From: Casimicrobium huifangae
GTDB lineage: Bacteria > Pseudomonadota > Gammaproteobacteria > Burkholderiales > Casimicrobiaceae
DNA: 64,000 bases
NCBI RefSeq assembly: GCF_009746125.1
Contig: NZ_CP041352.1
Coordinates: 248,001 to 312,000, forward strand
Direction: 5' to 3'
The notes under the pieces are model-generated. The model was not told where the DNA came from, made no database searches, and saw nothing but the letters and a program-made list of their open reading frames with translations. Of this stretch, positions 553-60,056 are shown one piece after another. Numbering within the stretch: position 1 is the first letter of the stretch; each line of letters starts with the position of its first letter. A program made the translations under genes and the position numbers.

Positions 553-1092
553 ATGGCCCACGAACGCGCTACGCTGGCGGCGACGGCCGCCCGCATCATT
601 GTCGAATCCGAGCTGACCGACTGGGCGCTGGCGCGCCGCAAGGCAGCGGCCGAACTCGGGCTCGCCGCACACGGCACGCCACAGCCCTCCGACGCCGAAA
701 TCATCGCCGAAATCCAGACTTGGCAAGCGCTTTACGGCGGCGCGGAGTGGGTGGCCCAACTGCGGGCGCAGCGCGAGTACGCGCTGGAGGCGATGCAGGC
801 CTTGCAGCGCTTCAATCCGGCACTGGTTGGCCCGGTGGCCGAGGGCTGGGCGCATGCCGGCAGCGAAATCCGCATCGAGCTGACACCCGACAACCCCAAA
901 GAAGTCGAGTACGCGTTGATCGACCTCGACGTCGAGTTCACGCCGCATCTCGGTCGCGATGGCGTGGCGCAGTACGAAATCGTCGATGGCGACTGGCCGA
1001 TGCGGCTGGTCGTGCGCGAAGGCGGGCGCGCGCCCGACCCACGCCACAAGCATCGTCTCAGCGGCTCGCAACTGCAGCAGCTTTTGCGCTAA
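553..1092 (+). CDS. Conserved protein of unknown function
   Basis: A 179-residue soluble protein with no signal peptide or membrane segment. The N-terminal third is helical and basic (RKAAAELG at about residues 29-36). The C-terminal half is acidic and looks like a beta-rich domain (IELTPDNPKEVEYALIDLD). It follows the PBP1A gene by 42 bp on the same strand and may be co-transcribed. From memory, similar short proteins sit next to PBP1A in other betaproteobacteria, sometimes named nucleotidyltransferase, but no nucleotidyltransferase motif is visible here. The stop codon lies inside the first copy of the palindromic repeat family, so the last four codons are encoded by the repeat. Confidence 0.75.
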   Translation: MAHERATLAATAARIIVESELTDWALARRKAAAELGLAAHGTPQPSDAEIIAEIQTWQALYGGAEWVAQLRAQREYALEAMQALQRFNPALVGPVAEGWAHAGSEIRIELTPDNPKEVEYALIDLDVEFTPHLGRDGVAQYEIVDGDWPMRLVVREGGRAPDPRHKHRLSGSQLQQLLR

Positions 1093-1190
1093 AGCCCTAT
1101 TTGAAAAGGGCTCAGGGCCTCAAACGGCAATAGTCGACTATTGCCGTTTCTTGCCCATACGCCATATGCCGCCGTAGCTCCGCTGAAAAG
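1081..1190 (+). repeat. Palindromic element copy A (110 bp, GTCGAC-centred)
   Basis: Imperfect palindrome centred at 1135.5. It begins CTTTTGCGC and ends GCTGAAAAG. The GGGC (1115-1118) and GCCC (1153-1156) arms are equidistant from the centre. The inner 28 bp (1122-1149) form a perfect palindrome around GTCGAC. The left end overlaps the last codons and stop of the preceding gene. A separate small hairpin, AGCCCT (1093-1098) with AGGGCT (1107-1112), lies in the left half. Confidence 0.85.
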
Positions 1191-1348
1191 CTGACTATCG
1201 TCCTGTGCTGACGAAGCCGCAGCCGAACAAATCGTTACAAACGATAAGGCGATGAAACCGCTTGTTTTGCGCTGCCGCGAGTCCATGTAGCGGTCAGGCG
1301 CTGAAGAGCGTTTCTTCCTCCTCATCACATTCAGCAAGGAATCAGGAC

Positions 1349-1798
1349 ATGAAAAAGATCGTGAAATCCGCCCTCATTGCATCCACGCTCATCGCGGCCG
1401 GCGCCAGCCTCGCCCACGACGGCCCGATGGGTGGCGACGGCATGCACAAGGGCATGGGGCCGATGGGCCAGGGCATGGGCATGCAGCGCCAGCCGGTCGA
1501 CATCGCCAAAATTTTGAACCTCGACGCCGCCCGCGCCGACAAGGTCAACGCCATCCTCGCCGACGAACGCAAGGAGCGTCAAGCGCTGTGGGAGTCGCGC
1601 AAGACCGCCGGCCATGACGACGCCAGCAAGCAGGCCTTCCGCGACAAGATGATCGCCCTGCGCGACAGTACCAAGACCAAATTGACCGCAGTGCTCACTG
1701 CCGATGAACTGCAGAAGCTGCGTGACGCTACCGCCGGGCACCGCATGCATCGTGGCCACGGGCCGCAGCCGCAGGGTGGCGAACACAAGCACGGCTAA
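1349..1798 (+). CDS. Spy/CpxP-like periplasmic protein
   Basis: A 149-residue exported protein. An N-terminal signal peptide (MKKIVKSALIASTLIAAGASLA) is followed by a Met/Gly/His-rich segment (about residues 25-50) and a helical region. The periodic charged helices and the LTADELQKL segment resemble the LTxxQ motifs of Spy/CpxP, periplasmic chaperones and stress sensors. The first ATG preceded by AAGGA and followed by a clean signal peptide was chosen. The Met/His-rich segment could bind metal (inference). It is one of two related genes in tandem; a terminator follows. Confidence 0.8.
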   Translation: MKKIVKSALIASTLIAAGASLAHDGPMGGDGMHKGMGPMGQGMGMQRQPVDIAKILNLDAARADKVNAILADERKERQALWESRKTAGHDDASKQAFRDKMIALRDSTKTKLTAVLTADELQKLRDATAGHRMHRGHGPQPQGGEHKHG

Positions 1799-1820
1799 CC
1801 GCGCACGACCCAGTCACCAA

Positions 1821-1852
1821 CCCCGGCCGCTTCACGGCGCCCGGGGTTTTTT
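1821..1852 (+). terminator. Rho-independent terminator after the first Spy-like gene
   Basis: CCCCGG (1821-1826) pairs with CCGGGG (1841-1846), followed immediately by TTTTTT. It begins 22 bp after the stop codon. Confidence 0.8.
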
Positions 1853-2057
1853 GTTGCCAGCAGCAACTGCGTGATCGTCCGCGAACACACTTTCTTACAA
1901 ACCAGCTGGTCCAATCGCGGCTTTTTTCCGTCGTCGAGCGTTCAAATAGTCACCAAGGCAATCAGCGCTACCCAACCCCCTTACTCTGACCGGCAGCGCT
2001 CCGTTTCATCAAGAACCGCGTGACGGAAGTCACCACGCCAACGAAAGAGAGACCGCA

Positions 2058-2426
2058 ATGAAACTGTTCAAGACCACCCTCATCGCAGCAGCATTGCTTG
2101 CTACCGGCGCCGCATTCGCAGGCCCTGGCGGCATGGGCATGCATCAGCCGGGCGAGCGCATCGTCAAGATTCTCAATCTCGATGCCAACCGCGCGGCACA
2201 GGTGACCGCCATCATGACCGACGCGCAGAACCAGCGCCGTACCGTGTTCGAGTCGATGAAAGGCAAGCGCGGCGATCCGGCCGCCCGCGAAGCCGCCCAC
2301 GCACAGATGAAAGCCATCGGCGACGGCACCAAGGCCAAGCTTGCGCAAGTGCTGACCCCGGACGAAATGGCCAAACTGAAGGAAGCACGCAAGGCGATGC
2401 GCGGCCACGGACCCGCCCGCGGCTAG
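2058..2426 (+). CDS. Spy/CpxP-like periplasmic protein, second copy
   Basis: A 122-residue exported protein with signal peptide MKLFKTTLIAAALLATGAAFA. It shares with the gene at 1349 the segment (I)VKILNLDANRAAQV, a helical charged middle and an LTPDEMAKLKEA motif near the end, so the two are paralogues. The Met/His-rich linker is much shorter here. A purine-rich RBS (GAAAGAGAG) precedes the ATG. Its own terminator follows, so it is probably a single-gene unit. By family it should be a periplasmic chaperone-like or stress-response protein; the specific role is unknown. Confidence 0.8.
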   Translation: MKLFKTTLIAAALLATGAAFAGPGGMGMHQPGERIVKILNLDANRAAQVTAIMTDAQNQRRTVFESMKGKRGDPAAREAAHAQMKAIGDGTKAKLAQVLTPDEMAKLKEARKAMRGHGPARG

Positions 2427-2448
2427 ACGACAACGCCAAAAGGAAAAA

Positions 2449-2475
2449 GGCAAGCCCGCAAGGCTTGCCTTTTTT
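2449..2475 (+). terminator. Rho-independent terminator between convergent genes
   Basis: AGGCAAGCC (2449-2457) pairs perfectly with GGCTTGCCT (2462-2470), followed by a run of T to 2475. It separates the second Spy-like gene from the convergent delta-60 gene that ends at 2492. Confidence 0.9.
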
Positions 2476-2491
2476 GCGCGCGGCGCGCGCG

Positions 2492-8030: not shown

Positions 8031-9875
8031 TCAGGGCAAGCAGGAGGCGCCGTGAGTTGCAGCAATCCATGCGAGGATCTGCTGCGCGTTGCGCGCATTC
8101 GGGTGCGCTGAATTTGCTGCGCCTGCTGTCAGCGCTGTGTCACTGAGCCCAATCAGGGCGCGCAGGATCAGCAATCCGTCGGTGGTGGCCAGCATCTGGC
8201 CATCGTTGTCAGCATCAAGGGCGACGGCCAGCAATAACCCCGCCAGATGGGCTTCGATCTGCGCGGTGTTGCGGGCCGGGTTGCTGCCGACCGCGCTGCC
8301 GGTCAGCGCTGCGCCGCGAAGCCCGAGCAGATAGCGCACGATCAGCAGGCCATCGGTGGCCGCGTCCACCGCCATGTTGCCATCGATGTTGAGCGTGCAG
8401 GCGGGCGGCGTGTAGGGGCCGCCTTCGAAGCGGGCCAGGCAGAAGGCGTCGGACGAGCCGCGATAGCAGTTGCCGGCCAGCAGCAGATAACCGTTGGTTT
8501 GTAGCGCTGCCGCGTAGGTGAGGTCACGTTCGTTGGCAATGCTCGGCTGAATGGCCTTGCCGCCCGAGCCCCAGGTGCCGTCAAGGCTGCCATCAGCAAG
8601 CAGCCGTGCGCTGCAGAACACGCCGGTGCCGGCCACCGATCCTGCCCGGCAGCGTCCGCCAAGCAATACCTTGCCGTCGGGCTGCACGAACACGGCATAC
8701 GCGCCATCAAAATCGGAGTCGAACGCGAACAGCAGCTTGCCGCGATCCGCCAGCACCGGTGCAGCGGCGTTGAAGCCAGTGGCGTCGAGTGTGCCGTTGC
8801 TGTTGTAGCGGGCAACGCAATACCGGGTGATCGCGCCGGTGCTGAACGCGCCGCCCGTTGAGCATGCACCCGCGAGCACGATCTTGCCGTCCTGCTGGAT
8901 CGCCACGGCCTTGGCGGCATCCTCATCGGTACTGATCGGGGTGATCACCTTGCCGACGCTGCCGAATGCGCTGTCCAGCGCGCCCGCTGTGGTGAGTCGC
9001 AACAGGCAGAACTCGGTGTTGGCGTTGTTCAGGCAGGAGCCCGCCACCACCAGTTTGCCGTCGCTTTGCTGCGCGGCGGCCATTGCGTAGGAGCTGTTGC
9101 CAATCGCTTCGATGCGGGTGCCGGGCAGCGTGCCGCCAGCGTTGAAGCTGGTGTCGAGGGTGCCGTCGCTGTTGTGGCGCGACAGGCACATCGCATTGGC
9201 AACCAGTGAAGCGCCACAGGAGCCAACGATCACAATCTTGTCATCCGCCTGCAGCATCAAGCCGGACGCCACGTTGTAGAACGGGCCGGGTGCGACGGTC
9301 GCCACGCCCGGCGTTGTGCCGCCGGCATTGAAACTGGTGTCGAGGCTGGCATCCGGCAGCAGGCGGACCACGCAAAAGTCGTAATAGCCCGACGTGAGAT
9401 TGCTGCAGGTGCCGGCGACGATGATCTTCTGGTCGGGCTGCACCGCGACCATGCCAAACAGGCTCTGGCCCGGCGTCTCCTCAATGATCAGCTCACCCGC
9501 TTGCAGATCGGGTTGCAGGCCGCCTTGCGTTGCGTTCGGGTTGAACGTGAGATCCGGCGTGCCGTTCGGGTGGTAGCGCACCACGCAGAGTTTGCTGGTG
9601 CTGAGGCCGCTGCAACTGCCGGCCACGAGCACCTTGCCATCGGCCTGCACCGCCACCCCGCGCGCGTTGTCGGGGGCGGCAGATGAGCGACCGGGTTTCG
9701 CCAGCGCCTTGCCGCGATCACTGATGATGGGGTTGGCGGCGTTGAAGCCGCCGCTATCGAGATCGCCAGGGGCCGCGAGCAGGCTAGCGGCGTGTGCCGC
9801 CAGCAGCAACGCAACAAGTGCAAACGGCCAGCGACGGGCGGAGCGGCCAGCGCGACGAGCGCAAAAGGCTTGCAT
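8031..9875 (-). CDS. Secreted seven-repeat delta-60 propeller protein with double dockerin-like tail (3)
   Basis: 614 residues. An Arg-rich n-region and hydrophobic core form the signal peptide, ending ASLLAAPGDLD. Seven repeats are visible (QADGKVLVAG, QPDQKIIVAG, QADDKIVIVG, QSDGKLVVAG, QQDGKIVLAG, QPDGKVLLGG, QTNGYLLLAG), nearly all followed within two residues by Cys and then by xFCxxR. The tail (about 493-614) holds two acidic loops, NIDGNMAVDAATD and DADNDGQMLATTD. Each is followed by GLLI(V/L)R and an LGL/IGL turn, and the whole is bracketed by an opening Cys and the final SCLP. GAGGAC lies about 8 bp before the ATG. It is closest in sequence to the next gene upstream (ending 9954). 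Confidence 0.8.
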   Translation of the reverse strand: MQAFCARRAGRSARRWPFALVALLLAAHAASLLAAPGDLDSGGFNAANPIISDRGKALAKPGRSSAAPDNARGVAVQADGKVLVAGSCSGLSTSKLCVVRYHPNGTPDLTFNPNATQGGLQPDLQAGELIIEETPGQSLFGMVAVQPDQKIIVAGTCSNLTSGYYDFCVVRLLPDASLDTSFNAGGTTPGVATVAPGPFYNVASGLMLQADDKIVIVGSCGASLVANAMCLSRHNSDGTLDTSFNAGGTLPGTRIEAIGNSSYAMAAAQQSDGKLVVAGSCLNNANTEFCLLRLTTAGALDSAFGSVGKVITPISTDEDAAKAVAIQQDGKIVLAGACSTGGAFSTGAITRYCVARYNSNGTLDATGFNAAAPVLADRGKLLFAFDSDFDGAYAVFVQPDGKVLLGGRCRAGSVAGTGVFCSARLLADGSLDGTWGSGGKAIQPSIANERDLTYAAALQTNGYLLLAGNCYRGSSDAFCLARFEGGPYTPPACTLNIDGNMAVDAATDGLLIVRYLLGLRGAALTGSAVGSNPARNTAQIEAHLAGLLLAVALDADNDGQMLATTDGLLILRALIGLSDTALTAGAANSAHPNARNAQQILAWIAATHGASCLP

Positions 9876-9953
9876 GTTTCATGTCCTCAGCGCCCCCGCG
9901 TTGGTACAAGCCAATAGTATCGCTGCTTTGCGGCGGTTTGCCACAGCTGCCCA

Positions 9954-11867
9954 TCAGGGCAGGCAATCGGTGCCGTGCGTCGTGCGGATCCAGTCCAGCA
10001 CTTGTGTCGCGTTGCGTACGTTCGGGTGCTGTGCGTTGCTCGCGCCTGCCGTCAGCGCGGTGCCGCTCAACCCCAGCAAGGCCCGCACGACCAGCAAGCC
10101 GTCGGTGATGGCGCGTGGCTGGCCGTCGTTGTCGGCATCGAGCGCTCCGCCAGTCAACAAACCGGCGAGATGAGTCTCGATCTGCGCCGCATTGCGTCCG
10201 GGGCTGACGCCAGTCGCGCCGGTCACCAGCGCCGTGCCGCGCAGCCCGAGCAGATAGCGCGTCACCAGCAGGCCGTCGGTGGCTGCGTCCACCACCGGGT
10301 TGGCGTCAATGTTCAGCGTGCACGCGGGCACCGGCACCGGGCCACCCTTGAAGCGGGCGAGGCAGAACTGTTCCGGTGCACCGCGAAAGCAGTTCCCCGC
10401 CACTACGATGTCACCGTCCGGCTGCAACAGTGCAGCCACGGAAATGTCGCGCTGGTTGGCGACAGCGGCCACCGTCGCCTGGCCGCCGCTGCCGAACGTT
10501 GCGTCCAGACTGCCATCGGTGCTCAGGCGCAACAGGCAGAACACGCCGGTGCCCTGTGCCGGGTCGGCGTTGCAGCGGCCCACCAGCACCAGCTTGCCAT
10601 CGCTTTGCACCAGCAGTGCATCGGCGCCATCGTAGGTGCTGGCGAAGGCCAGCAGCCGCTTGCCACGGTCGGCCGGTGCGGCGCTGGCGTTAAAGCCCGT
10701 GGTGTCGAGCGCGCCAGTGCTGAGGTAGCGGGCGACGCAGAACTTGGTCACGCCCGCGTTGGAGTAGGCCCAGTGCGTGCTGCAGGCGCCGGCCACCACG
10801 ATCTTACCGTCCGCCTGCACCACCACGCCGGTGGCGGCGTCTTCGTCGCTGGCGATGGGGGTGATCACCTTGCCGCCGCTGCCGAACGACGCGCTGTCGA
10901 GCGCGCCTACGGTGGTCAGGCGAAACAGGCAGAAGTCGGACGTGCCGGCGTCATCGCAGCTGCCTGCCACCACCAGCTTGCCGTCGCTCTGCCGCGCCAC
11001 GTCCGTTGCGTATGACGAATTGCCATCGCCGATGGTCTCGACGCGGGTGCCGGGCCGGGTGCCACTGGCGTTGAACGTGATGTCGAGCGTGCCATCGCTG
11101 TTGTGCCGGGAGATGCACATCGCGGTGGCCACGATGGTCACGCCGCAGGAGCCAACCAACACGATCTTGCCATCAGGCTGCAACAGCATCGCCCGAGCCG
11201 TGTTGTAGAAATTGCCCGGCGCCACCGTGGCCACACCCGGTGTGCTGCCGGCGGCGTTGAAGCTGGTGTCGAGCGTGGCATCGGCCAGCAGCCGCGCCAC
11301 GCAGAAATCGTTGTAGCCGGTCGTTGCGTTGCCACAGGTACCGCCGACGATGATGCGGCCGTCAGGCTGCACTGCCAGCAAGGCCCCGTAGCCGGTGTTG
11401 GGCGCGGCCTCCAGGATCAGCTCGCCCGGCTGCAGATCAGGCTGGGTGCCGCCCTGCGTGGCATCGGGGTTGAAGGTGGTGTCGGCGCTGCCGTTGCTGT
11501 TGAAGCGCGCAATACAGAGCTTGCGCACAAATACGCCACGGCAATCACCCGCGATCAGCAGTTTGCCGTCGGTCTGTCGCGCCACACTCATCGCATGGTC
11601 CGCCTCGAACTGCGATCGGCCGATCTTTTCCACCACCTTGCCGCGGTTGCTCGGCACCGGGTCGCTGCTGTTGAAGCCGGTGACGTCAAGATCACCGGGC
11701 GCAGCAAAAGCGGTGCGGGTCAGTGCGAGCAACAGCACGCAGGCGAACCGTGCGACGAATGCGGGCGTCCGCGAACGCATCGCACGCGGCGCGCATTCCC
11801 GCTCATACACGCGCGCGCTTGCTGGCGATGCCTCGTCAGTGGTCAGGCCTGATGTTCGTTGTCTCAT
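9954..11867 (-). CDS. Secreted seven-repeat delta-60 propeller protein with double dockerin-like tail (4)
   Basis: 637 residues from the ATG at 11867, which has GGAGCC about 8 bp upstream. A shorter start at 11780 (MRSRTPAFVARFACVLLLALTRTAFA is the signal peptide proper) is also possible. Seven repeats (QTDGKLLIAG to QPDGDIVVAG) carry the family cysteine pairs. The tail has two loops (NIDANPVVDAATD and DADNDGQPRAITD), each followed by GLLV(T/V)R, and closes with TDCLP. The N-terminal segment APGDLDVTGFN and the block DATQGGTQPDLQPGELI closely match the gene ending at 8031, showing tandem duplication. Function unknown; predicted secreted. Confidence 0.8.
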   Translation of the reverse strand: MRQRTSGLTTDEASPASARVYERECAPRAMRSRTPAFVARFACVLLLALTRTAFAAPGDLDVTGFNSSDPVPSNRGKVVEKIGRSQFEADHAMSVARQTDGKLLIAGDCRGVFVRKLCIARFNSNGSADTTFNPDATQGGTQPDLQPGELILEAAPNTGYGALLAVQPDGRIIVGGTCGNATTGYNDFCVARLLADATLDTSFNAAGSTPGVATVAPGNFYNTARAMLLQPDGKIVLVGSCGVTIVATAMCISRHNSDGTLDITFNASGTRPGTRVETIGDGNSSYATDVARQSDGKLVVAGSCDDAGTSDFCLFRLTTVGALDSASFGSGGKVITPIASDEDAATGVVVQADGKIVVAGACSTHWAYSNAGVTKFCVARYLSTGALDTTGFNASAAPADRGKRLLAFASTYDGADALLVQSDGKLVLVGRCNADPAQGTGVFCLLRLSTDGSLDATFGSGGQATVAAVANQRDISVAALLQPDGDIVVAGNCFRGAPEQFCLARFKGGPVPVPACTLNIDANPVVDAATDGLLVTRYLLGLRGTALVTGATGVSPGRNAAQIETHLAGLLTGGALDADNDGQPRAITDGLLVVRALLGLSGTALTAGASNAQHPNVRNATQVLDWIRTTHGTDCLP

Positions 11868-12045
11868 CTCCGTGGCTCCGGTTGCGGCGGCGTGTGCTCT
11901 GGCGCAATTGTCAACGGCGAACGCCGTCGCGATCACAGCCCACTGCCTGCCAGAAGCAATTACGGATTTCCGTGCGATGACGCGACATCCGTGCGAGACG
12001 GGCACGATATCGCAGCGTCGAAAGTCTCCTCAAGTGAGGCAGTGG

Positions 12046-12157
12046 CTCAACAGTGGAACCCGCATGCGCTATGGGCTTAAATGCCGAAAAGCCTGAAAGT
12101 CGACTTCAGCCGATTTCGATAGCCGAGCCCAATGTCGATGAGCATTTCAATTGAAAG
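12046..12157 (+). repeat. Palindromic element copy B (112 bp)
   Basis: Centred at 12101.5 on GTCGAC (12099-12104). GGGCTT (12073-12078) and GAGCCC (12125-12130) are equidistant from the centre. It ends TTGAAAG. Right of the core is CTTCAGCCGATTT, matching the family consensus CTTnnGCCaaTTT. It fills most of the gap 11868-12177, in which no gene is seen. Confidence 0.85.
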
Positions 12158-12177
12158 CCAATGCGCGCAACGGCACG

Positions 12178-13920
12178 CTACGGTAAGCAGGCCACGCCGT
12201 GCGTGGATTCGATCCAGGTGAGGATTTGCTGCGCGTTGCGCGCATTCGGATGCGCCGTGTTCACCGCACCCGCGGTCAGCGCATCACCGGTGAGCCCGAG
12301 CATCGCGCGCAGGATCAGCAAGCCATCAGTCATCGCCAGCGACTGGCCGTCGCCGTCGGCGTCGAGGTTGAGTGAGGCAAGGTGGCTTTCTAACGCCTGG
12401 CCAGTGCGGGTTGGGTTTTGGCCGAGTGCGCCGGTCGTGAGCGCGTCACCGCGCAGGCCGAGGAGATAGCGGGTGAGCAGGAGGGAGTCGGTCGCAGTGT
12501 CAATCGCCTGATTCGCATCGGCGTTAAGAGCGCACGTTAGCGGGTTGTAGGGGCCGCCTTTCAGGCGGGAGGCACAAAACTCCAACCCGAGATAGATGCT
12601 AAAGCCCGGAATGAGTGTCTGATAGTTGTCGCAATATCCGACCACGACGACCTTCCCGTCTGGAGCCGCAGCTAACGCCGTTGCATAATCCAGCCCCTGA
12701 CCAACGCGATAACTGGCGAGTCCGCCAAGGCCGAATGCCGCATCTGGCGTTCCGTCAGACGAAAATCGGGCAACACAGAATTGGAGACTGAGAGTCGCGC
12801 CTTCGCATTGCCAAAACACCAGATAGTTGTTTCCGTCAGTTGTTGCACCGGCGAACGGCGGATTCGCTGCGCGACCGACAAATGAGCGTACAACGCCACC
12901 CTGACCAAACGACGCGTCCGGCGTTCCGTCTGGCAGCACACGATAGAGACACAAACCCGTCAACGAATCACTGTTGCGCGCACAGTGCGTCGCGAAGACG
13001 AGCTTGTGGTCGGGTTGCTCAGTTGCGAAAACTGCATCGAGTGTCTGCCCGGCTAACGCGACGATTAGTCCACCGTTCGCGCCGAAAGTCGGGTCCGGTT
13101 GACCGTCCCCGAGCAGGCGAACAGCACAGAGGTCACCACCATAAACCGATCCGCCGCAGTAGCCCGAAATCACCAATTTTCCGTCTGCTTGAACGAGCCC
13201 GTGCCGCGCATAGTCAATGCCGCTCGAGACGCCCAAGGCAACGGGCACGCCAGATCCATATGTCGCATCCAGCGATCCATCGTTCATCAGCCGCGCGGGA
13301 CAAAGGCGGTTGCCTGTCGCGCTGGAAAAACAAGTGCCAATGACCAACCACTTGTGATCGGCGGTTTCGATCAATTGAGTGATCGATATGTTTGGTGCGT
13401 TTGCGATAGGCCCGACCTTGCCGCCAACTCCGAACGTAGGATCCAACGCGCCGGAGGAATCGTAGCGCGCCAAACATGATGACCAGACCGACCACAACGC
13501 GATGAGGCACGGGCCGGCAATGACTATCTTGCCGTCTGATGCCACGACGATGGCATTGCCAGATGCGTCGCCGTCTAGAGTTGTCCGCACCGTGCCCGCG
13601 CTACCAAACGCAGGATCAGGTGTGCCGTCGGTACGCAAACGCGCCAGACATAGCTCCCGCCTGGTGTTTTGAGTCGTCTGGCAATTTCCGGCCAACACGA
13701 GTTTTCCGTCAGACTGAACAGCGACGGCCCCCGCGACGTCCGCTCGCGGCGTCACCGGAATAATCGATGCTCCGCCGATCCCAAACGTCGGATCAAGCTG
13801 GCCCGGCGCGGCAACGGATGTGCCGCTCAACAGCAGACACGCAAACGCGGCCCAAACGCTCGCAATGAAGCGACTGCGGCAAAGCGCAGGGCGTCGAAAA
13901 TGCAGGGAGTTGAAGGGCAT
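12178..13920 (-). CDS. Secreted seven-repeat delta-60 propeller protein with double dockerin-like tail (5)
   Basis: 580 residues with a signal peptide ending LLLSGTSVAAPGQLD. Seven repeat strands are recognisable (QSDGKLVLAG, ASDGKIVIAG, TADHKWLVIG, QADGKLVISG, QPDHKLVFAT, TTDGNNYLVF, APDGKVVVVG), with Cys one to two residues later in each. The propeller part has diverged from its neighbours and the DNA is less GC-rich there. The tail has two loops (NADANQAIDTATD and DADGDGQSLAMTD) and closes VACLP. The final ~180 bp are almost identical to the end of the gene at 14128. No strong RBS is seen before the ATG. Confidence 0.8.
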   Translation of the reverse strand: MPFNSLHFRRPALCRSRFIASVWAAFACLLLSGTSVAAPGQLDPTFGIGGASIIPVTPRADVAGAVAVQSDGKLVLAGNCQTTQNTRRELCLARLRTDGTPDPAFGSAGTVRTTLDGDASGNAIVVASDGKIVIAGPCLIALWSVWSSCLARYDSSGALDPTFGVGGKVGPIANAPNISITQLIETADHKWLVIGTCFSSATGNRLCPARLMNDGSLDATYGSGVPVALGVSSGIDYARHGLVQADGKLVISGYCGGSVYGGDLCAVRLLGDGQPDPTFGANGGLIVALAGQTLDAVFATEQPDHKLVFATHCARNSDSLTGLCLYRVLPDGTPDASFGQGGVVRSFVGRAANPPFAGATTDGNNYLVFWQCEGATLSLQFCVARFSSDGTPDAAFGLGGLASYRVGQGLDYATALAAAPDGKVVVVGYCDNYQTLIPGFSIYLGLEFCASRLKGGPYNPLTCALNADANQAIDTATDSLLLTRYLLGLRGDALTTGALGQNPTRTGQALESHLASLNLDADGDGQSLAMTDGLLILRAMLGLTGDALTAGAVNTAHPNARNAQQILTWIESTHGVACLP

Positions 13921-13987: not shown

Positions 13988-14098
13988 CTTTTCGTCGAAA
14001 GCGTCATTCGGTTGGGGTGCGCAGTCGCTTCTGGCGAAAGTCGCTCTGAATCGTCTTGTCCCACCCCTCAACGTAGCGCAGGTGCGTCCCTCTTTTCT
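13988..14098 (-). repeat. Degenerate palindromic element, inverted orientation (copy H)
   Basis: Read on the minus strand, the half from the core outwards is CGACTTTCGCCAG... and ends CGACGAAAAG, 55 nt from the core, as in the other copies. The core is degenerate (GTCGCT, centre 14042.5). The arms survive as TTGGGGTG and CACCCCTCAA, slightly out of register. The other end has lost the AAAAG terminus. It lies between two delta-60 genes. Confidence 0.5.
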
Positions 14099-20829: not shown

Positions 20830-20939
20830 CTTTCTCCTGAAACGACCATTGCATAGGGCCTGAGCCAATAAATCGCCAGAAATCGACTTATGCCAATTTC
20901 AACTTCTAGCCCGCATTAAATGGGGCTTGCAGCGAAAAG
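20830..20939 (+). repeat. Palindromic element copy C (110 bp)
   Basis: Centred at 20884.5 on ATCGAC. It begins CTTTCTCC and ends GCGAAAAG. Arms GGGC (20856) and GCCC (ending 20912) are offset from symmetry by one base. Right of the core is TTATGCCAATTTC, and the right arm reads TAGCCCGCATTAAATGGGG. It lies between glpK and rpiB. Confidence 0.8.
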
Positions 20940-34318: not shown

Positions 34319-34408
34319 GGCGGGCCGGATTGCTAGTGGCCTGCCCAGGGCCGTTGTTGCGAACGGCGGCCGAGTGGTTGTCAACGGCCGCCAGGGGCGG
34401 TCAGTGAG

Positions 34409-34904: not shown

Positions 34905-35016
34905 CTTTTTGGTGAATCCCGCATCTGATCTGGGCTTGAGCCGCTAAAGTGCAGTAGGTCGACTTTCGCCAATTGTGGCGTTCAAGCCCTTATCGGGCGG
35001 CCATTTCGCCAAAAAG
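34905..35016 (+). repeat. Palindromic element copy D (112 bp)
   Basis: Centred at 34960.5 on GTCGAC (34958-34963). The ends CTTTTTGG (34905) and CCAAAAAG (35016), and the arms GGGCTTGA (34932-34939) and TCAAGCCC (34982-34989), are all exactly equidistant from the centre. This is the best-preserved copy and can serve as the reference. Confidence 0.92.
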
Positions 35017-39343: not shown

Positions 39344-40408
<1,065 letters not shown>

Positions 40409-40426
40409 AGCGGCACACTATATCAA

Positions 40427-40589
40427 GGGAAACGCTGAACAAGTCCCTCACGAGCCGCGCATCGCCGGACTCTGGCGGCTGGCTTCGTTGCATAGCCTCA
40501 TCGTAGCCCCGCTACGACTGCGTTTTGCGCCTCACCATCCATCCCGATCCGCCGCGCGCAGCTTCGCGGGGACTTGTTCAGCGTTTCCC
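40427..40589. mobile_element. MITE-like element with 21-bp perfect terminal inverted repeats
   Basis: Terminal repeats 40427-40447 (GGGAAACGCTGAAC...) and 40569-40589 are perfect reverse complements. The 163-bp element has no coding capacity. Inside is a CGTAGC-CCC-GCTACG hairpin (40502-40516). The flanks both show AA, too short to prove a target-site duplication. It fills half of the ugpC-ugpB gap. A related autonomous transposon is not in the window. The remaining 40590-40735 shows no gene. Confidence 0.75.
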
Positions 40590-40735
40590 AACCGTCGGAC
40601 AGGCCATCCATGCGGCGGTGCAGCATGAGCAAGGGAAACCCGCGTTTGCACGGTCATGCGAAAAGTGTCACATTAGTTGACTACGCTATCGCGTTGACCA
40701 AAACAACACACAATCAGCACGACTGAGGAGACAAG

Positions 40736-42076
40736 ATGAAAATGATTCGCAAAGCGCTGGCCGTGGCCATCGCCGGGACTGCGCTGCTGGCCGGCACCGC
40801 CTCGGCACAGAACAAGCCGATCGAGATCCAGATGTGGATGGGCCTGACCGGGCTCGGCGGCGAAACGCTGACCAAGTACGGCGAAGAATTCAACAAGATG
40901 CAGAACGAGTACAAGGTAGTCGTCTCGTTCAAGGGCCAATACCCCGAGCAGCGCGCCGCGGCCGTGGCCGCGTTCCGTGCCGGCAACCCGCCGCACATCA
41001 TGCAGATGTTTGATGCCGGCTCGGGCGACATGATGGGCGCCAGCAAGGCCATCGTCCCGGTGTCGGAAGTGTTCAAGCGCGCCGGCATGCAGTTCAACCC
41101 CGGTGACTTCATCGCGCCGGCCCGTGGCTATTACGGCCTGAAGGATGGCAGCCTGCTGTCGATGCCGTTCAACGTGTCCACCTCGGTGCTGTTCTACAAC
41201 AAGGACGTGTTCAAGAAGGCGGGGCTCGACGCCAACAAACCGCCAGCCACCTGGCCTGACCTGATTGCGGCGGCGAAGAAGATTCGCAGCACCAACGCGG
41301 CCAACTGCGGCTTTACCACCACCTGGCTGGCGTGGATCCAGCTTGAGCAGCTGGGCGCCCGCCACAACCTGCCGATCGGCACCCAGGCCAATGGTCGCGG
41401 TGGTCTCAACGCCGAGCTGAACTTCAGCAATCCGCTGTTCGTCAAGCAGGTGCAGACGCTGGTCGACATGCAGAAGGACAAGAGCTTCGACTACAAGGGC
41501 CGCAGCAACGATGCCTCGGCCTCGTTCCAGTCCGGCGAATGCGCGATGATCACGCAGAGCTCGGGCGCCTACGGCGGCTACGTGCGTGATGCCAAATTCG
41601 ACTGGGGCGTGGCGCCGGTGCCGTACTGGCCGGAGGTCAAGGGCGCGCCCTACGCGACCACCGTGGGCGGCGCCTCGCTCTGGGTGTTCAATGCGCCAAA
41701 CCGCAGCGCCGCCGAGTTCAAGGGCGTTGCCAAGTTCCTCGACTACCTGAAGTCGACGCCGGTGATGACTGACTGGGCGAAGACGACTGGCTTCCTGCCA
41801 GCCACCAACGCCGCGTTCAAATATCTGACCGACGAAGGCTACTACGCGCAAAACCCGAAGACAGCCGTCGCCATTGGCACGCTGGCCAACGGCAAGCAGG
41901 GTGAGCACACCGGTGGCTATCGCTTTGGCCGCTGGACCGAGATTCGTGACTACTACCACGAGGAAGTCGAGAAGGCGCTGCAGGGCAAACAGTCGGCCAA
42001 AGAGGCAATCGACAACAGCATCAAGCGCGGCAATGCTGCGCTGCGTGCGTTCGAGAAAACTGCCGCGACCAACTAA
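40736..42076 (+). CDS. ugpB: sn-Glycerol-3-phosphate-binding periplasmic protein
   Basis: 446 residues: signal peptide (MKMIRKALAVAIAGTALLAGTASAQ) and a family 1 extracellular solute-binding fold. The pattern EFNKMQNEYKVVVSFKGQYPEQRAAAVAAFRAGNPPHIMQMFDAGSGDMM and SMPFNVSTSVLFYNKDVFKKAGLD matches UgpB, which captures glycerol 3-phosphate and glycerophosphodiesters. GAGGAG precedes the ATG. A terminator-like hairpin follows before ugpA, a usual way to make more binding protein than permease. Confidence 0.94.
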   Translation: MKMIRKALAVAIAGTALLAGTASAQNKPIEIQMWMGLTGLGGETLTKYGEEFNKMQNEYKVVVSFKGQYPEQRAAAVAAFRAGNPPHIMQMFDAGSGDMMGASKAIVPVSEVFKRAGMQFNPGDFIAPARGYYGLKDGSLLSMPFNVSTSVLFYNKDVFKKAGLDANKPPATWPDLIAAAKKIRSTNAANCGFTTTWLAWIQLEQLGARHNLPIGTQANGRGGLNAELNFSNPLFVKQVQTLVDMQKDKSFDYKGRSNDASASFQSGECAMITQSSGAYGGYVRDAKFDWGVAPVPYWPEVKGAPYATTVGGASLWVFNAPNRSAAEFKGVAKFLDYLKSTPVMTDWAKTTGFLPATNAAFKYLTDEGYYAQNPKTAVAIGTLANGKQGEHTGGYRFGRWTEIRDYYHEEVEKALQGKQSAKEAIDNSIKRGNAALRAFEKTAATN

Positions 42077-42093
42077 GACCGCCGGCACAACGG

Positions 42094-42124
42094 AAAAAGG
42101 GGCGCTCAACACGCCCCTTTTTTG
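42094..42124 (+). terminator. Intercistronic terminator/attenuator between ugpB and ugpA
   Basis: AAAAAGGGGCG (42094-42104) pairs with CGCCCCTTTTT (42112-42122). It is a perfect stem with a T-run, only 14 bp before the ugpA start. Confidence 0.85.
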
Positions 42125-42137
42125 TTAGATTCGATTC

Positions 42138-43019
42138 ATGCAACGCCGCGTCATCTTCAACGAAAAGCTGCTGCCCTATCTGCTGCTGGCGCCGCAGCTG
42201 GCGGTGACGCTGATTTTTTTCTTCTGGCCCGCCGGACAGGCGATCCACATGTCGGTGCTGTCGCAGGACGCGTTCGGCCAGTCAGTCACCTTCGTCGGCC
42301 TCGACAACTTCAAGGAAGTGCTGGGCGACGCCGAGTATGTGAAGACGCTGTGGCGCACGGTGCTTTTCTCGTCAGCGGTGGCGGTGACTGCGCTGTTCCC
42401 GGCGCTGCTGTTCGCGGTGATGGCGGAGCGGGTGATTCGCGGCGCGACGTTCTACCGCACGGTGCTGGTGCTGCCCTACGCCATCGCGCCGGCGGTGGCG
42501 GGCGTGTTGTGGCTGTTCATGTTCTCGCCGTCGATTGGTGTCGTCGCCTACGGGCTCAAGAAGCTCGGCATCGACTGGAACCCCAAGCTTGACGGCAGTG
42601 ACGCGATGATTCTGGTGATCATGGCGGCGGCGTGGAAGCAGATCAGCTACAACTTCCTGTTCTTCCTCGCCGGGTTGCAGTCGATCCCGAAGGCGCTGCT
42701 GGAGGCCGCGTCAATTGACGGCGCCAGCGAATGGAAGAAGTTCTGGACGATCACTTTCCCGCTGCTGTCGCCGACGACATTCTTCCTGCTGGTCGTCAAC
42801 ATCGTCTACGCCTTCTTCGATACCTTCGGCATCATCGACGCAGTCACCAACGGCGGCCCTGCCAAGGCGACCGAGGTGCTGGTCTACAAGGTTTACTACG
42901 ACGGCGTGCATTCGCTGAACCTCGGCTCATCATCGGCGCAAAGCGTGATCCTGATGGCGATCGTGATCGTGCTCACCGCCGTGCAATTCCGCTACGTCGA
43001 GCGCAAGGTGCACTACTGA
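42138..43019 (+). CDS. ugpA: sn-Glycerol-3-phosphate ABC transporter permease
   Basis: 293 residues with six predicted membrane helices. The EAA-type loop [28 protein letters not shown] (about 188-215) contacts the UgpC ATPase. It forms the inner-membrane channel with UgpE. It is in operon ugpBAE; its TGA overlaps the ugpE ATG by one base. Confidence 0.94.
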
Positions 43020-43888
43020 TGCTGGACAGCCCGATCACCGCCGCCGTTGGCCGTCGCAGCAACTGGGTGCCGCATGCCGTGCTCTGGATTGGCGTGTTCA
43101 TCACGGCGTTCCCGCTCTACGTCACCTTCGTTGCCTCAACGCTGCTGCCGCAGGACATCGCGCAGGTGCCGATGCAGCTGTTCCCCGGCACGCATGGCTG
43201 GGACAACTATCGCGAGGCCTGGAGCAAGGGCTCGGCGGGCACCTATCTGTCGCCGCCGGCGGCGACGCTGCTGCTCAACTCGCTGATCGTGGCGCTGGTG
43301 GTGACCTTCGGCAAGATCAGCGTGAGCCTGCTGTCGGCCTATGCCGTGGTGTTCTTCAAGTTCCCCGGCCGCATGATCTTCTTCTGGATGATCTTCATCA
43401 CGCTGATGCTGCCGGTGGAAGTGCGCATCCTGCCGACCTATCAGGTGGTGACCGATCTCAAACTGATCAACAGCTACGCCGGGCTCACCCTGCCGATCAT
43501 CGCCTCGGCAACGGCAACACTGCTGTTCCGGCAGTTCTTCCTGACCATCCCCGACGAGCTGGTCGAAGCCGCCAAAATTGATGGTGCTGGCCCGCTACGC
43601 TTTTTCAAGGATGTGGTGATTCCGCTGTCGCGCACCAACATCGCGGCGCTGTTCGTGATCCTCTTCATCTACGGCTGGAACCAGTATCTGTGGCCGCTGC
43701 TCATCACCACCTCGAACTCGCTGGACGTGATCGTGGTGGCGATCAAGAAGATGATTGGCACCGGCGCCGAGCCTACCGACTGGCACATCGTGATGTCCAC
43801 CACCATCCTGGCGCTGATCCCGCCGGTGCTGGTAATCATCCTGATGCAGAAGAGCTTTGTGAAGGGCCTCACCGATACCGAGAAGTAA
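43019..43888 (+). CDS. ugpE: sn-Glycerol-3-phosphate ABC transporter permease
   Basis: 289 residues, six predicted helices; the coupling loop is [31 protein letters not shown]. The start ATG overlaps the ugpA stop (TGATG at 43017-43021), showing translational coupling. It ends KGLTDTEK, as usual for UgpE. The palindromic element copy E follows 17 bp after the stop. Confidence 0.94.
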
Positions 43889-43905
43889 GGGCCCGGGCGC
43901 AACGA

Positions 43906-44017
43906 CTTTTTCACGAAAGCCTTGTCCGATATGGGCTCAATGCTGGATTCGGTTAGAAGTCGATATTTGCTTTTTTCACGCTCCGAGCCCACATTAAATG
44001 GGCATTTTGGCAAAAAG
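43906..44017 (+). repeat. Palindromic element copy E (112 bp)
   Basis: Centred at 43961.5 on GTCGAT. CTTTTT (43906) and AAAAAG (ending 44017), and GGGCTC (43933-43938) and GAGCCC (43985-43990), are exactly symmetric. The right arm continues GAGCCCACATTAAATGGGC, as in copy C. It lies between ugpE and the terC gene. Confidence 0.9.
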
Positions 44018-44090
44018 CCGCTTCATCCAAAGCAGCGAACTGACAGTCTCCATTTCTAGAATTTCCGCAAGCAAACAAGGGGGACGCGCT

Positions 44091-44801
44091 TTGGATCTCG
44101 TACTTTTCACTGGCGCCTGGTGGGCGGCGCTGGGCTCCATCATTCTGGCCAACATCGTGCTCTCCGGCGACAACGCCGTGGTGATCGCGATGGCCGCGCG
44201 CAAACTGCCCGACGGGCAGCGGCAGAAGGCCGTGTTCTGGGGGTCCGCCGCTGCCATCGTGATGCGGATCATCCTGACGCTGATCGCAGTGCAGTTGCTG
44301 CAGCTGCCCTACCTGAAGATCGTCGGCGCCTTCCTGCTCGTCTACATCGGCGTGCAACTGATGGCGGAAGGCGATGAAGACGATGCCGGCGATGGCCACG
44401 ATGGCGGCAAGGAAGGCATGATGGCCGCCGTGCGCACCATCCTGATCGCTGACTTGGTGATGAGCCTCGACAACGTGATCGCGGTGGCTGCCGCCGCCAA
44501 GGACAACAACACGCTGCTGATCATCGGCCTGGCGGTGAGCATTCCGCTGATCGTTTTTGGCTCCACGCTGCTGATGAAGGTGATGGACCGCTTCCCGATC
44601 ATCATCACCGCCGGCGCGGCGCTGCTGGGTTTCCTCGCGGGCGAAATGTTTGTCACCGACCCGGCCGACAAGGATTTCTTCGACAAGCTGACCGATTCCC
44701 ACATGTGGGCTGGTGCGCTGGGGGCCATCACCGTGGTCGCGATCGGACTCTACGCCCGCCGTCACCTCGCCGCAAAGATGGCGGCCAAAAACAACAAGTA
44801 G
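44091..44801 (+). CDS. TerC family integral membrane protein
   Basis: 236 residues, about seven membrane helices. Two conserved acidic motifs lie within membrane segments: LANIVLSGDNAVVIA near the start and IADLVMSLDNVIAVAAA in the second half. These are typical of the TerC/YjbE family, implicated in metal-ion (often manganese) export. The loop EGDEDDAGDGHDGGKEG is acidic and His-containing. The TTG at 44091 is chosen because AAGGGGG lies 7 bp upstream and the conserved protein begins there. Confidence 0.9.
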   Translation: MDLVLFTGAWWAALGSIILANIVLSGDNAVVIAMAARKLPDGQRQKAVFWGSAAAIVMRIILTLIAVQLLQLPYLKIVGAFLLVYIGVQLMAEGDEDDAGDGHDGGKEGMMAAVRTILIADLVMSLDNVIAVAAAAKDNNTLLIIGLAVSIPLIVFGSTLLMKVMDRFPIIITAGAALLGFLAGEMFVTDPADKDFFDKLTDSHMWAGALGAITVVAIGLYARRHLAAKMAAKNNK

Positions 44802-52531: not shown

Positions 52532-52643
52532 CTTTGGTATGAAACACCCATTTGATCTGGGCTCATCGACTGTTTTGCCATGAAGTCGACTGTCGTCATT
52601 TTTGCCCATTGAGCCCAGTTGGAATAAGGATCATGAGCGAAAG
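52532..52643 (+). repeat. Palindromic element copy F (112 bp)
   Basis: Centred at 52587.5 on GTCGAC (52585-52590). CTTTGG (52532) and GCGAAAG (ending 52643), and CTGGGCTCA (52557-52565) and TGAGCCCAG (52610-52618), are exactly symmetric. It fills the start of the gap 52468-52767, where no convincing gene is found; the 3' part of the gap carries only the AAGGAGG RBS of the next gene. Confidence 0.92.
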
Positions 52644-57259: not shown

Positions 57260-58027
57260 TCATCCGATGCCTTCGGCACGGAAGGCCCAACCCGTGAAGC
57301 GCCGCTCAACAAGTGCAGTGATCGCATAGAGCGCAATGCCAAGCACGGCGAGCGCCGCCACACCGGCGAACACCAGCTCCACATTGAAGCCCGCCTGCGC
57401 GTCGAGCATCATCTTGCCAAGCCCCGAGTTGGCGCCGATGGTTTCTGACACCACCGAGCCGACGAAGGCGAGGGTGATGGCAACTTTCAGCGAGCCGAAA
57501 AAATACGGCATCGAGCGCGGAATGCCGACTTTGCGCACGACATCGAGCTTGCTGGCGCCGAGGGCGCGCAGTACATCTTGCAGCTCCGGCTCGGTGGTCG
57601 CCAGCCCCGTGGCGACGTTGACCACGATCGGGAAGAACGAGATCAGGAACGCCGTGAAGATGGCCGGAATGGTGCCGATGCCGAACCAGATGATGAGGAT
57701 GGGCACCACCGCCACCTTCGGCACCGCGTTGAAGGCAATCATCACCGGGTAAAGCGCGCCGTAGATCAGTTTTGACCAGCCGATCGCGACGCCGAGCACG
57801 AGACCGAACACGATCGCGAGCCCAAACCCGAGCAGCGTAGTCATCAGTGTCTGCAGGCTGTTGTCCCGGATCGCAGGCCAGTACTGCACCAGCGCCTTCG
57901 CGACTGCGGAGGGCGTGGGCAACACCGTCGCTGGCAGGCTGAACAGCACGCAGGCGAGCTCCCACAGCAAAATCAGCGCAGCGGTGAAGGCGAGCGGGGC
58001 GAGGAGGTTTTCTTTCCAGTGTTTCAT
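57260..58027 (-). CDS. ABC transporter permease (NitT/TauT type)
   Basis: 255 residues, about six membrane helices. The loop LRALGASKLDVVRKVGIPRSMPYFFGSLKVAITLAFVGSVVSETIGANSGLG is the ATPase-coupling EAA region of SsuC/TauC-type permeases. It forms an importer with the ATPase gene 9 bp upstream on the same strand and the divergent binding protein at 58917. Confidence 0.92.
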   Translation of the reverse strand: MKHWKENLLAPLAFTAALILLWELACVLFSLPATVLPTPSAVAKALVQYWPAIRDNSLQTLMTTLLGFGLAIVFGLVLGVAIGWSKLIYGALYPVMIAFNAVPKVAVVPILIIWFGIGTIPAIFTAFLISFFPIVVNVATGLATTEPELQDVLRALGASKLDVVRKVGIPRSMPYFFGSLKVAITLAFVGSVVSETIGANSGLGKMMLDAQAGFNVELVFAGVAALAVLGIALYAITALVERRFTGWAFRAEGIG

Positions 58028-58036
58028 CGCTGACTC

Positions 58037-58828
58037 CTAGTGCTTGCCGATGTGTGAGCGCAGCTCATGCACCAGGTCCTGAAACGGCTTCTCGTAAGTG
58101 ATCTCGAGATCACGCGGACGTGGTAGATCAATCGTCTGCACCTTCACAATCTTGCCCGGCCGGTCGCTCATCACGTACACGGTGTCGGCGAGGAACACGG
58201 CCTCGCGCAGGTCATGGGTGACCAGCATCGCGGTGACGCCGCGTGACTGGTGGATGTCACGCATCATGCACCACAGTTCCTCGCGAGTGAAGGCGTCAAG
58301 CGCGCCGAATGGTTCGTCAAGCATCAGGATTTCCGGCTCGTGGATCAGTGCGCGGCAGATGCTGGTGCGTTGCTGCATGCCACCGGAAAGTTGCCAGGGA
58401 AATTTTTCGGTGAAACCGCCGAGACCGACGGACGCGAGCAGCGCGCGCGCCTTGTCGCGATAGGCCGCTTTCTCGCGACCGATGCGCGAGCGGTGGGGCT
58501 CGACGATTTCCAGTGGCAGCAGCACGTTGTCTACCGCCGTGCGCCACGGCAGCAGATTGGCCGCCTGAAATGCCATGCCGACCTTGTTGATCGGCCCGGT
58601 CACCGCTTTGCCCTCGATGGTGAGCCGGCCTTCGGACGTTGGCTTGAGCCCGCTGATCAGCTTCATCATCGAGCTCTTGCCGCAACCCGAAGGCCCCACC
58701 ACCGCGATGAATTCGCCCTTGTGAATGGTCAGCGTCAAATCGTCAACCGCTTTCACTGCCTGCTGGCCGTGGCCATACGTCATGCTCACGTGGTCGAGCA
58801 CTACCAGCGGATCGCCCGCGTTCACCAT
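58037..58828 (-). CDS. ABC transporter ATP-binding protein (NitT/TauT type)
   Basis: 263 residues from the ATG at 58828 (GGAG upstream). Walker [11 protein letters not shown]-loop AFQAANLLPWRT, signature LSGGMQQRTSICRAL, Walker B ILMLDEPFGALD and THDLREAVFLAD are those of SsuB/TauB/ThiZ ATPases. It is the first gene of the permease operon, divergent from the binding-protein gene across 88 bp. Confidence 0.93.
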   Translation of the reverse strand: MVNAGDPLVVLDHVSMTYGHGQQAVKAVDDLTLTIHKGEFIAVVGPSGCGKSSMMKLISGLKPTSEGRLTIEGKAVTGPINKVGMAFQAANLLPWRTAVDNVLLPLEIVEPHRSRIGREKAAYRDKARALLASVGLGGFTEKFPWQLSGGMQQRTSICRALIHEPEILMLDEPFGALDAFTREELWCMMRDIHQSRGVTAMLVTHDLREAVFLADTVYVMSDRPGKIVKVQTIDLPRPRDLEITYEKPFQDLVHELRSHIGKH

Positions 58829-58916
58829 CACACACTCCGCAATGTCTGTTTGGCCACGGCACGCAATTTGCGTACCGGAGCCATCGATCAACAAGACCTG
58901 ACAAGACGGAGATTTC

Positions 58917-59945
58917 ATGAAACGTCGCGCCCTGTTCGCAACGCTCACCCTCGGTGCGCTGTCGTCATTCGCCACGCTCGCGCCCACTGCGTTTGCCCAG
59001 ACACCGATCAAGTTCGCCCTCGATTGGCGCTTCGAGGGGCCGGCGGCGCCCTATTTTGTGGCGCTCGACAAGGGCTACTACAAGGCCGAAGGGCTGGACG
59101 TGACTATCGACACTGGCAACGGTTCCACCGAGGCCATCAATCGTGCTGCATCGGGCGCGTATCAGTTCGTGTTTGGCGACATCAACACGCTGGTGCGCTT
59201 TCGTGACAAGCCCGAGAGCAAGAAACTCAAGGTTGTGGCGATGATTTACGACGCGCCGCCGTTCGCGATCGTGTCATTGAAGAAGGCTGGCATCAGCAAA
59301 CCGAAAGACCTGGAAGGGAAGACGCTCGGCGCGCCCGCCGCCGACGGTGCCTACGCGCAGTGGCCGGCCTTCGTGAAGAAGAACGGCATCGACGCCAGCA
59401 AAGTGAAGATCGAAAACGTCGGCTTCCCGGTGCGTGAGCCGATGCTTGTTGAAGGCAAGGTGGACGCCATCACCGGCTTCTCGTTCTCGTCGTACATGAA
59501 TCTGCGCGGTCGCGGTATCGCTCAGGACGATATCCACGTGATGTTGATGCGCAACCTCGGACTGGAGCTTTACGGCAACGGCATCATCGTTGACAGCGAA
59601 TACGCGGCGAAGAACCCGAAGATCGTGCAGGGCTTTGTCAGGGCCACCCTCAAGGGCTGGCAGGACGCGATTGCCGACCCGAAGGGCGCGATTGCCTCGC
59701 TGATGAAGCGGAACTCGATCCTGAACGACGGCCAGGAATTCGTGCGCTTCAAGATGGCGATTGACCAGAACGTGCTGACACCCGAAGTGCGCGCCAACGG
59801 CATCGGCGGCGTCGACATGAAGCGCCTGGCGCGTTCAATCGAGCAGATCGGCGAGGGCTTCAAGTTCAGCAACAAACCGAAGGCGGAAGACATCTTCGAC
59901 GCAAGCTATCTGCCGGCGAAACCGGAGCGTACAATCAAGCAATAG
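58917..59945 (+). CDS. ABC transporter substrate-binding protein (NMT1/THI5-like)
   Basis: 342 residues. Signal peptide ends PTAFAQ; the N-terminus KRR does not clearly make a Tat motif. IKFALDWRFEGPAAPYFVALDKGYYKAEGLDVTIDTGNGSTEAINRAASGAYQFVFGDINTLV is the NMT1/SsuA-like fold. Proteins of this branch bind pyrimidines related to thiamine precursors, sulfonates or nitrate; the ligand here is not clear. Stop codon touches palindromic copy G. Confidence 0.9.
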   Translation: MKRRALFATLTLGALSSFATLAPTAFAQTPIKFALDWRFEGPAAPYFVALDKGYYKAEGLDVTIDTGNGSTEAINRAASGAYQFVFGDINTLVRFRDKPESKKLKVVAMIYDAPPFAIVSLKKAGISKPKDLEGKTLGAPAADGAYAQWPAFVKKNGIDASKVKIENVGFPVREPMLVEGKVDAITGFSFSSYMNLRGRGIAQDDIHVMLMRNLGLELYGNGIIVDSEYAAKNPKIVQGFVRATLKGWQDAIADPKGAIASLMKRNSILNDGQEFVRFKMAIDQNVLTPEVRANGIGGVDMKRLARSIEQIGEGFKFSNKPKAEDIFDASYLPAKPERTIKQ

Positions 59946-60056
59946 CTTTTCGGAAGATTGGCGTCCGAATGCGGCATGGCCGCCGAAATTGCAGAAAGTT
60001 GACTTTAGCCATTAATAGGTGTCAAGCCCGCATCAAATAAGCGCTTTCTGAAAAAG
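59946..60056 (+). repeat. Palindromic element copy G (111 bp)
   Basis: Centred near 60000.5 on GTTGAC. It starts CTTTTCGG directly after the preceding stop codon and ends CTGAAAAAG. The right arm is TCAAGCCCGCATC; the left arm ATGCGGCATGG has a 1-bp deletion. Right of the core is TTTAGCCATTAAT, fitting the consensus. Confidence 0.82.

Follow-up and report, generated by a model that had tools for sequence, protein, structure and literature searches.

Evenly spaced palindromes of about 112 bp in the chromosome of Casimicrobium huifangae as candidate protein-bound sites of chromosome architecture

An open question is whether the domain boundaries of bacterial chromosomes can be fixed and encoded in the sequence. 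Distributed chromosome-organising sites, such as matS, parS, the FtsK orienting polar sequences (KOPS), and the SlmA and Noc sites, are about 8–20 bp long and regional or oriented; to our knowledge, the familiar sites of this kind are several times shorter than the elements described below, and none is evenly spaced chromosome-wide. Uptake and Chi-like marks have a length of about 8–12 bp. Among dispersed repeats, repetitive extragenic palindromes (REPs) lie mostly near gene 3' ends, and enterobacterial repetitive intergenic consensus (ERIC) elements belong to the same size class as the present family. A REP is defined as a palindrome of 20–40 bp that carries a GTAG or CGTC tag (PMC3733652). 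For DNA gyrase, two papers describe a motif of 120–130 bp with 10–11 bp phasing (PMC6379681, PMC12324340). The second reports -2A/+6T around the central 4-bp cut, and -4G/+8C in agreement among the enzymes studied (PMC12324340). In the present study, we analysed a 64,000-nucleotide stretch of the Casimicrobium huifangae chromosome (the window; NZ_CP041352.1, positions 248,001 to 312,000) and the family of dyad-symmetric palindromes in its intergenic gaps. The elements are symmetric and modular, their arms are independent, and they are evenly spaced, intergenic, retained in place among sister species and restricted to one genus among the genomes searched. We read them as candidate protein-bound sites of chromosome architecture.

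The host genome is a single contig of 4,465,898 bases, of which the window is part. Two models were used for detection: a covariance model trained on the seven clear window copies (R1) and a sequence-only model built from the 110 genome copies that R1 found (R2). The seven elements, listed without strand, were A (1081..1190, 110 bp, with a weakly conserved right arm; 44.9 bits with R2), B (12046..12157, 112 bp; 62.8 bits), C (20830..20939, 110 bp; 63.2 bits), D (34905..35016, 112 bp; 71.2 bits), E (43906..44017, 112 bp; 75.3 bits), F (52532..52643, 112 bp; 61.5 bits) and G (59946..60056, 111 bp; 51 bits). With R1, for which they were the training set, they scored 76–102 bits, and their whole-length self-dyad identity was 0.41–0.63 (chance about 0.25). 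The seven clear copies of the preliminary description are real. So are their lengths (112, 111 or 110 bp) and the central T(C/T)GA, and in B, D, E and F the stretch from GGGC to GCCC does measure 58 bp. The degenerate eighth copy proposed at 13988..14098 was removed from the family (self-dyad identity 0.27; 10.2 bits and E = 4.8 with R1; no R2 match at E <= 1). The remark that all copies read in the same direction lost its meaning, because the family is near-symmetric and the model itself was built with the seven window copies on the plus strand; of the 103 remaining aligned copies, 58 were plus and 45 minus.

The search of the genome revealed many further copies, and dyad conservation persisted once they were aligned. 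R1 yielded 110 distinct places (at least 150 strand matches), and R2 added nine, giving at least 119 copies genome-wide; these numbers are lower bounds, since the best 150 of 1016 candidates (R1) and the best 150 of 1111 (R2) were scored. R2 detected 43 copies in 464 kb of contiguous sequence (the window plus two blocks of 200 kb), or one per 10.8 kb, excluding one partial match of 36–37 bp (1939809, E 0.009). The density of one copy per ~9 kb first noted in the window is therefore near the genome-wide value, and extrapolation from the 43 copies gave an estimated total of about 414.

The alignment of the 110 copies occupied exactly 112 columns with zero inserted columns, and the copy lengths were 112 bp (63 copies), 111 bp (38), 110 bp (8) and 106 bp (1). 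In the profile of the 63 gapless copies, near-invariant blocks (CTTTT, GAAA, CC-CATT, GA-ww-TGGGC, www, AAAGTCGACTTT and their mirror images) were joined by linkers close to random. The consensus ends were ANCAGCTTTT, and in 220 pooled ends conservation reached past the boundaries first reported by about 5 bp (ANCAG|CTTTT), extending the element to about 122 bp. The copies were GC-poor (GC 0.38–0.56 in the contiguous-region set, compared with 0.6255 for the window). The information content of the 43 contiguous-region copies (Rsequence) was 79.5 bits, a value inflated to an unquantified degree because every copy was detected by a model, compared with an Rfrequency of 13.4 bits for 414 sites. 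By module, the information was divided into outer (12.3 bits), inner (15.5), core (21.6, or 2 × 10.8), inner (15.5) and outer (12.3), with 1.0 bit per arm in the linker. The information theory of binding sites provides a basis for judging what one site-specific protein needs; each module alone carried approximately that amount, which suggests that several DNA contacts would be made by one assembly.

The two arms of a copy were independent of each other. Arm identity was 0.546 within the same copy and 0.550 between different copies, and within-copy arm pairing equalled the independent-column expectation at 56 of 56 positions (z from -1.8 to 1.5). When all column pairs were compared, dependence was strongest between neighbouring columns, and no arm-to-arm pair exceeded z 2.8. 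Inner hairpins within each arm, which we had considered, were dropped because strong long-range column dependence was absent. Judged from these sequences, the dyad symmetry is probably that of protein docking on the double helix.

The spacing of the elements was fairly regular. The 43 copies had a mean spacing of 10.6 kb, a minimum of 3180 bp and a coefficient of variation (CV) of 0.54, whereas placement in intergenic gaps drawn at random among those of 100 bp or more gave a CV of 0.90 (P = 0.00015) and reached a minimum of 3180 bp in 0 of 20,000 simulations. Among the 119 genome-wide copies, zero pairs were closer than 3 kb, compared with 9 expected (P 0.0001), and there was no regional bias (chi-square P 0.36). 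In a sister species (G011 in our genome numbering), 34–35 copies in 400 kb showed a weaker tendency (CV 0.66–0.69, P 0.01–0.016), with partial matches counted and with random positions rather than intergenic gaps as the null. A separate observation was made in the sister species G001, where two elements stand about 70 bp apart (contig L137, 38-324), an exception to the spacing rule; by eye, the open reading frame (ORF) beside this pair resembles a sensor histidine kinase.

Gene context was analysed with our own hexamer caller. Outside confident gene calls lay 42 of the 43 copies, the exception overlapping a low-scoring ORF, and three further copies touched a gene end by 11–14 bp. The median distance was 22.5 bp to 3' ends (n 44) and 123 bp to 5' ends (n 41; P 7e-7). 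By gap type, elements occupied 23 of 108 between tandem genes, 10 of 28 between convergent genes and 8 of 46 between divergent genes, and the excess between convergent genes was not significant (P 0.085). The 81 neighbour proteins, a set excluding proteins cut by a tile edge, were assigned to 170 Pfam families with at most 3 members each.

Conservation of place was examined at seven sites in six sister species (G001, G004, G005, G011, G013 and G015) picked for many R1 matches; for all of these species except G011, the test covered part of the contigs. The aligned DNA around the sites was about 67–91% identical, and 26 of the 29 testable orthologous places were occupied. Site E was occupied in 5 of 5 species (G001, G004, G005, G011 and G015), with only the downstream flank kept in G011 and G015. 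Occupancy was complete at sites 4136010 (4/4), 4022080 (1/1), 4028561 (6/6) and 4037700 (3/3). At site 4129637 it was 5 of 6, with a weak match in G004 (16.7 bits) and an empty gap in G013 (68 bp, compared with 197 bp in the own genome). At site 4121060 it was 2 of 4: copies were present in G011 and in G013, where the copy was cut by the end of the stretch, and G015 and G004 gave no match. The latter two places may hold missed copies, as the copies of these species score low. These counts leave out a G001 case of ambiguous standing, at a distance of about 740 bp (L226). In eight further genomes checked only by eye at site E, outside the 29 places (G002, G006, G007, G008, G009, G010, G012 and G014), we saw gaps that were short or might contain relics, and R2 gave at best a partial match (G012, E 0.0027).

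We then compared same-place copies column by column in a profile-anchored alignment, with copies at unrelated places as the control. In G011, the free columns were identical in 82 of 205 cases (0.400), compared with 350 of 1230 (0.285) at unrelated places, indicating that same-place copies are of common descent. Conserved columns were identical in 278 of 349 cases (0.797; 0.754 at unrelated places), and the contrast with the free columns indicated that conserved columns change far more slowly. An earlier free pairwise alignment (20 of the 26 occupied pairs; G011 0.82 conserved, 0.47 free) was set aside because it had no control. In the five more distant species, a copy fitting the family was still in place after the shared free sequence had vanished. 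We read this as probable long maintenance under selection at shared places, the alternative being loss and re-gain in the same gaps. The family has the chromosome-organising trait of a sequence-specific site kept at many fixed places, with common descent seen for G011 only.

The family was restricted to one genus in the genomes searched. R1 matched 14 of 30 genomes, the own genome included, all of the own genus (best 126 candidates per genome). R2 matched 10 of 11 further-searched genomes, again all of the own genus, and G017, from another genus of the family, had no match; G006 gave 108 strand matches and G016 one weak match (E 0.006). A genus-wide model (R3), applied with stricter filters to the best 12 candidates per genome, had matches in 5 of the 300 genomes searched from the order Burkholderiales, namely 5 of 6 genus members and 0 of 294 others. 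An exact pattern that matches 14 of the 110 own copies was found at 21 loci among 84,980 species' genomes, all in five record series of metagenome-assembled genomes labelled Burkholderiales, Betaproteobacteria or Proteobacteria. A looser pattern (36 of the 110 own copies) had 0 matches in viral contigs, and a comparison of element D with plasmids gave no match. The consensus drifted between species and the architecture stayed. In G006, the inner modules are near-perfect GCCCAATTnAATTGGGC palindromes, and one copy adjoins the orthologue of a gene flanking site 4028561. As a side observation, one G011 element (contig L295, 6050-6395) is split close to its midpoint; the insert is GC-rich, contains inverted repeats and measures about 170 bp.

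These observations point to a protein-bound site of chromosome architecture, an anchor or a boundary, occupied by a genus-specific multi-subunit complex, and we give this reading a probability of roughly 0.48. A protein likely binds the elements, and we infer that it is multi-subunit and serves chromosome architecture. Each copy would be a double-stranded DNA docking site with two-fold symmetry, composed of an outer module (ANCAGCTTTT..GAAA), an inner palindrome (CCnCATTnGAwwTGGGC, centred 34 bp from the dyad), a central module (www..AAAGTCGACTTT..www) and the mirror images. The sequence-specific complex would bind all modules together. About 400 complexes, one per ~10 kb and preferentially just behind gene 3' ends, would cut the chromosome into fairly regular segments, serving to anchor or delimit topological or looping domains. 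The even spacing, the indifference to gene orientation and function, the distance from gene starts, the symmetry and the retention of place argue for an anchor or boundary over an operator. Of the three readings offered in the preliminary description, the one that survives is that a nucleoid or segregation protein binds the elements. The fuller picture, in which one multi-subunit protein of one genus has co-evolved with hundreds of fixed five-module sites of 112–122 bp that split the chromosome at ~10 kb, is more tentative, and we would put it below even odds.

Several results weigh against the architectural reading. The spacing includes gaps of 37.5 kb in the own genome and about 29–33 kb in G011, and one G011 copy spans 132 bp. 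Three of the 29 places had no match, and eight genus members (G002, G003, G007, G008, G009, G010, G012 and G014) gave only 11–35 R2 strand matches, low counts that may reflect drift or loss. For a single protein, a consensus shifting simultaneously across hundreds of sites is unusual. In the five species other than G011, the free columns were saturated (112 of 372 identical, compared with 668 of 2255 at unrelated places), and the conserved columns showed no excess either (473 of 644, compared with 2828 of 3864). With no residual similarity, retention in those species is a matter of position, and this result slightly lowered our estimate for the architectural reading and slightly raised that for a mobile family. 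Known nucleoid proteins did not provide the binder: H-NS was present in 5 of 15 genomes, a distribution unrelated to that of the sites, and three or four HU/IHF-type genes were present in 15 of 15, site-less genera included. Both candidates were rejected, as their gene patterns do not track the sites.

Other explanations account for some of the same features. Transcribed hairpins, proposed in the preliminary description, would make the elements transcribed RNAs, terminators or cruciforms with a functional hairpin. The elements do stand behind stop codons, and seven copies folded at -20.5 to -54.3 kcal/mol, energies given without a shuffle comparison. However, the arms lack covariation and strong long-range dependence, compensatory change in the seven copies showed no excess over shuffles, and Rfam gave 0 matches in the window at the gathering score; a single sub-threshold Rfam match in 40300-44100 lay off the elements. 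On the lack of arm covariation we rejected the hairpin reading, and we regard it as very unlikely. An old mobile family of miniature inverted-repeat transposable elements (MITEs) or ERIC-like elements, which the preliminary description also raised, would require target immunity or insertion hot-spots to account for even spacing and shared places. Like ERIC elements and MITEs, the palindromes are imperfect, intergenic inverted repeats present in hundreds of copies; five sister species share places by position only, and the 2-bp flanks at the outer ends agreed exactly in 13 of 110 copies, compared with 8.2 expected. However, no target-site duplication of 3–10 bp was found in the 110 copies under two end definitions, and flank identity for k = 2–10 stayed within about 2 standard deviations of permuted flanks. 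Among the 63 gapless copies, the most similar pair was 0.679 identical. Shuffling the columns reached this value in 97% of 300 runs, with a mean maximum of 0.696, so no copy seems to have arisen recently from another. The near-random linkers beside invariant blocks, the conserved centre besides the ends, the few indels, the even spacing and the species-wise drifting consensus also set the family apart from ERIC and MITEs, as do the 26 of 29 places that hold a copy and the common descent with G011. By these comparisons, the elements are not recent transposons, and a mobile origin fits poorly and appears unlikely. A 163-bp MITE-like repeat at 40427-40589 differs from the palindromes in having perfect 21-bp terminal inverted repeats (GGGAAACGCTGAACAAGTCCC) and own-genome copies that are 81–96% identical; more distant copies are present in G012 and G002. 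REPs and bacterial interspersed mosaic elements (BIMEs) are likewise high-copy intergenic dyad sequences, but 109 of the 110 palindromes measure 110–112 bp and the consensus ends carry no GTAG or CGTC tag. The palindromes further differ from them in their 112–122 bp, five modules, arms without covariation and places common to sister species.

Operators of one global transcription regulator would also be palindromic, sequence-specific and always near genes. The regulon was rejected on the diversity of the neighbour proteins, which have no common function; in addition, 10 of the 41 element-bearing gaps were convergent and 8 divergent, the elements are close to 3' ends and away from starts, and even spacing is unexpected for a regulon. 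We thus consider it unlikely, little different in standing from the mobile family. Strong gyrase sites, one per topological domain in a BIME-2-like role, would agree with the even 10-kb spacing, and the known examples (Mu strong gyrase site, E. coli gyrase motif) resemble the palindromes in length (~120–130 bp), dyad centre and possible domain role. Gyrase-like wrapping was favoured at first, as conserved AT blocks had seemed to lie about 10 bp apart, but it was dropped after a periodogram and a check of the cleavage rules. One of three features tested agreed: column 53 was A in 56 of 63 copies and column 60 was T in 46 of 63, as in the -2A/+6T rule. The -4G/+8C rule failed, with A and T dominating (column 51, A 38 and G 13 of 63; column 62, T 39 and C 12 of 63). 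The AT-content periodogram had its highest power at 9.5 and 7.5 bp (1.27 at 9.5), compared with 0.04 at 10.5 and 0.31 at 11, unlike the 10–11 bp phasing of gyrase motifs. Moreover, about 80 bits of specific sequence far exceeds the degenerate gyrase motif, and gyrase sites are quite unlikely. Self-recognition marks for uptake, defence or replication-linked processes, rather than structural anchors, would be consistent with the genus-specific, genome-wide and even distribution; against them, 112 bp far exceeds the length needed and strand bias is absent (58/45), so they seem equally improbable.

Compared with matS, parS, KOPS, SlmA and Noc sites, the palindromes are likewise sequence-specific and scattered in the chromosome, and they may resemble such sites in function; they differ in their 112-bp length, even spacing and lack of regional or strand bias. 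The family does not fit the definitions of REP/BIME, ERIC/MITE, gyrase sites or described RNA families, and a search of the open-access literature found no description of it in the parts of the sources covered. With caution, we rate the palindrome family as categorically new, with a function that we infer. An estimated 400 long sites that are fairly regular, keep their places and can be located exactly from sequence would allow a direct test of the question of sequence-encoded domain boundaries. If the architectural reading is true, the sites would give a bacterial nucleoid a regular scaffold encoded in its sequence, and the drift of the consensus over hundreds of sites would be an unusual natural experiment in protein–DNA co-evolution.

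The neighbourhoods of individual window elements were also inspected. Element B lies between tandem minus-strand genes, which belong to a run of three on that strand (8031-13920) that all carry DUF5122 beta-propeller repeats. Element D has convergent genes on either side, with a GDPD family gene on the right, and element F is flanked by divergent genes. A single-chain Type ISP restriction-modification enzyme of 1658 aa is encoded at 29408-34384 and comprises endonuclease, helicase, methylase and specificity domains. Downstream of element E and before the next gene, at about 44040-44062, there is a CTGACAG..CTAGAAT motif that was also seen by eye in several sister species and looks like a promoter with unusually short spacing.

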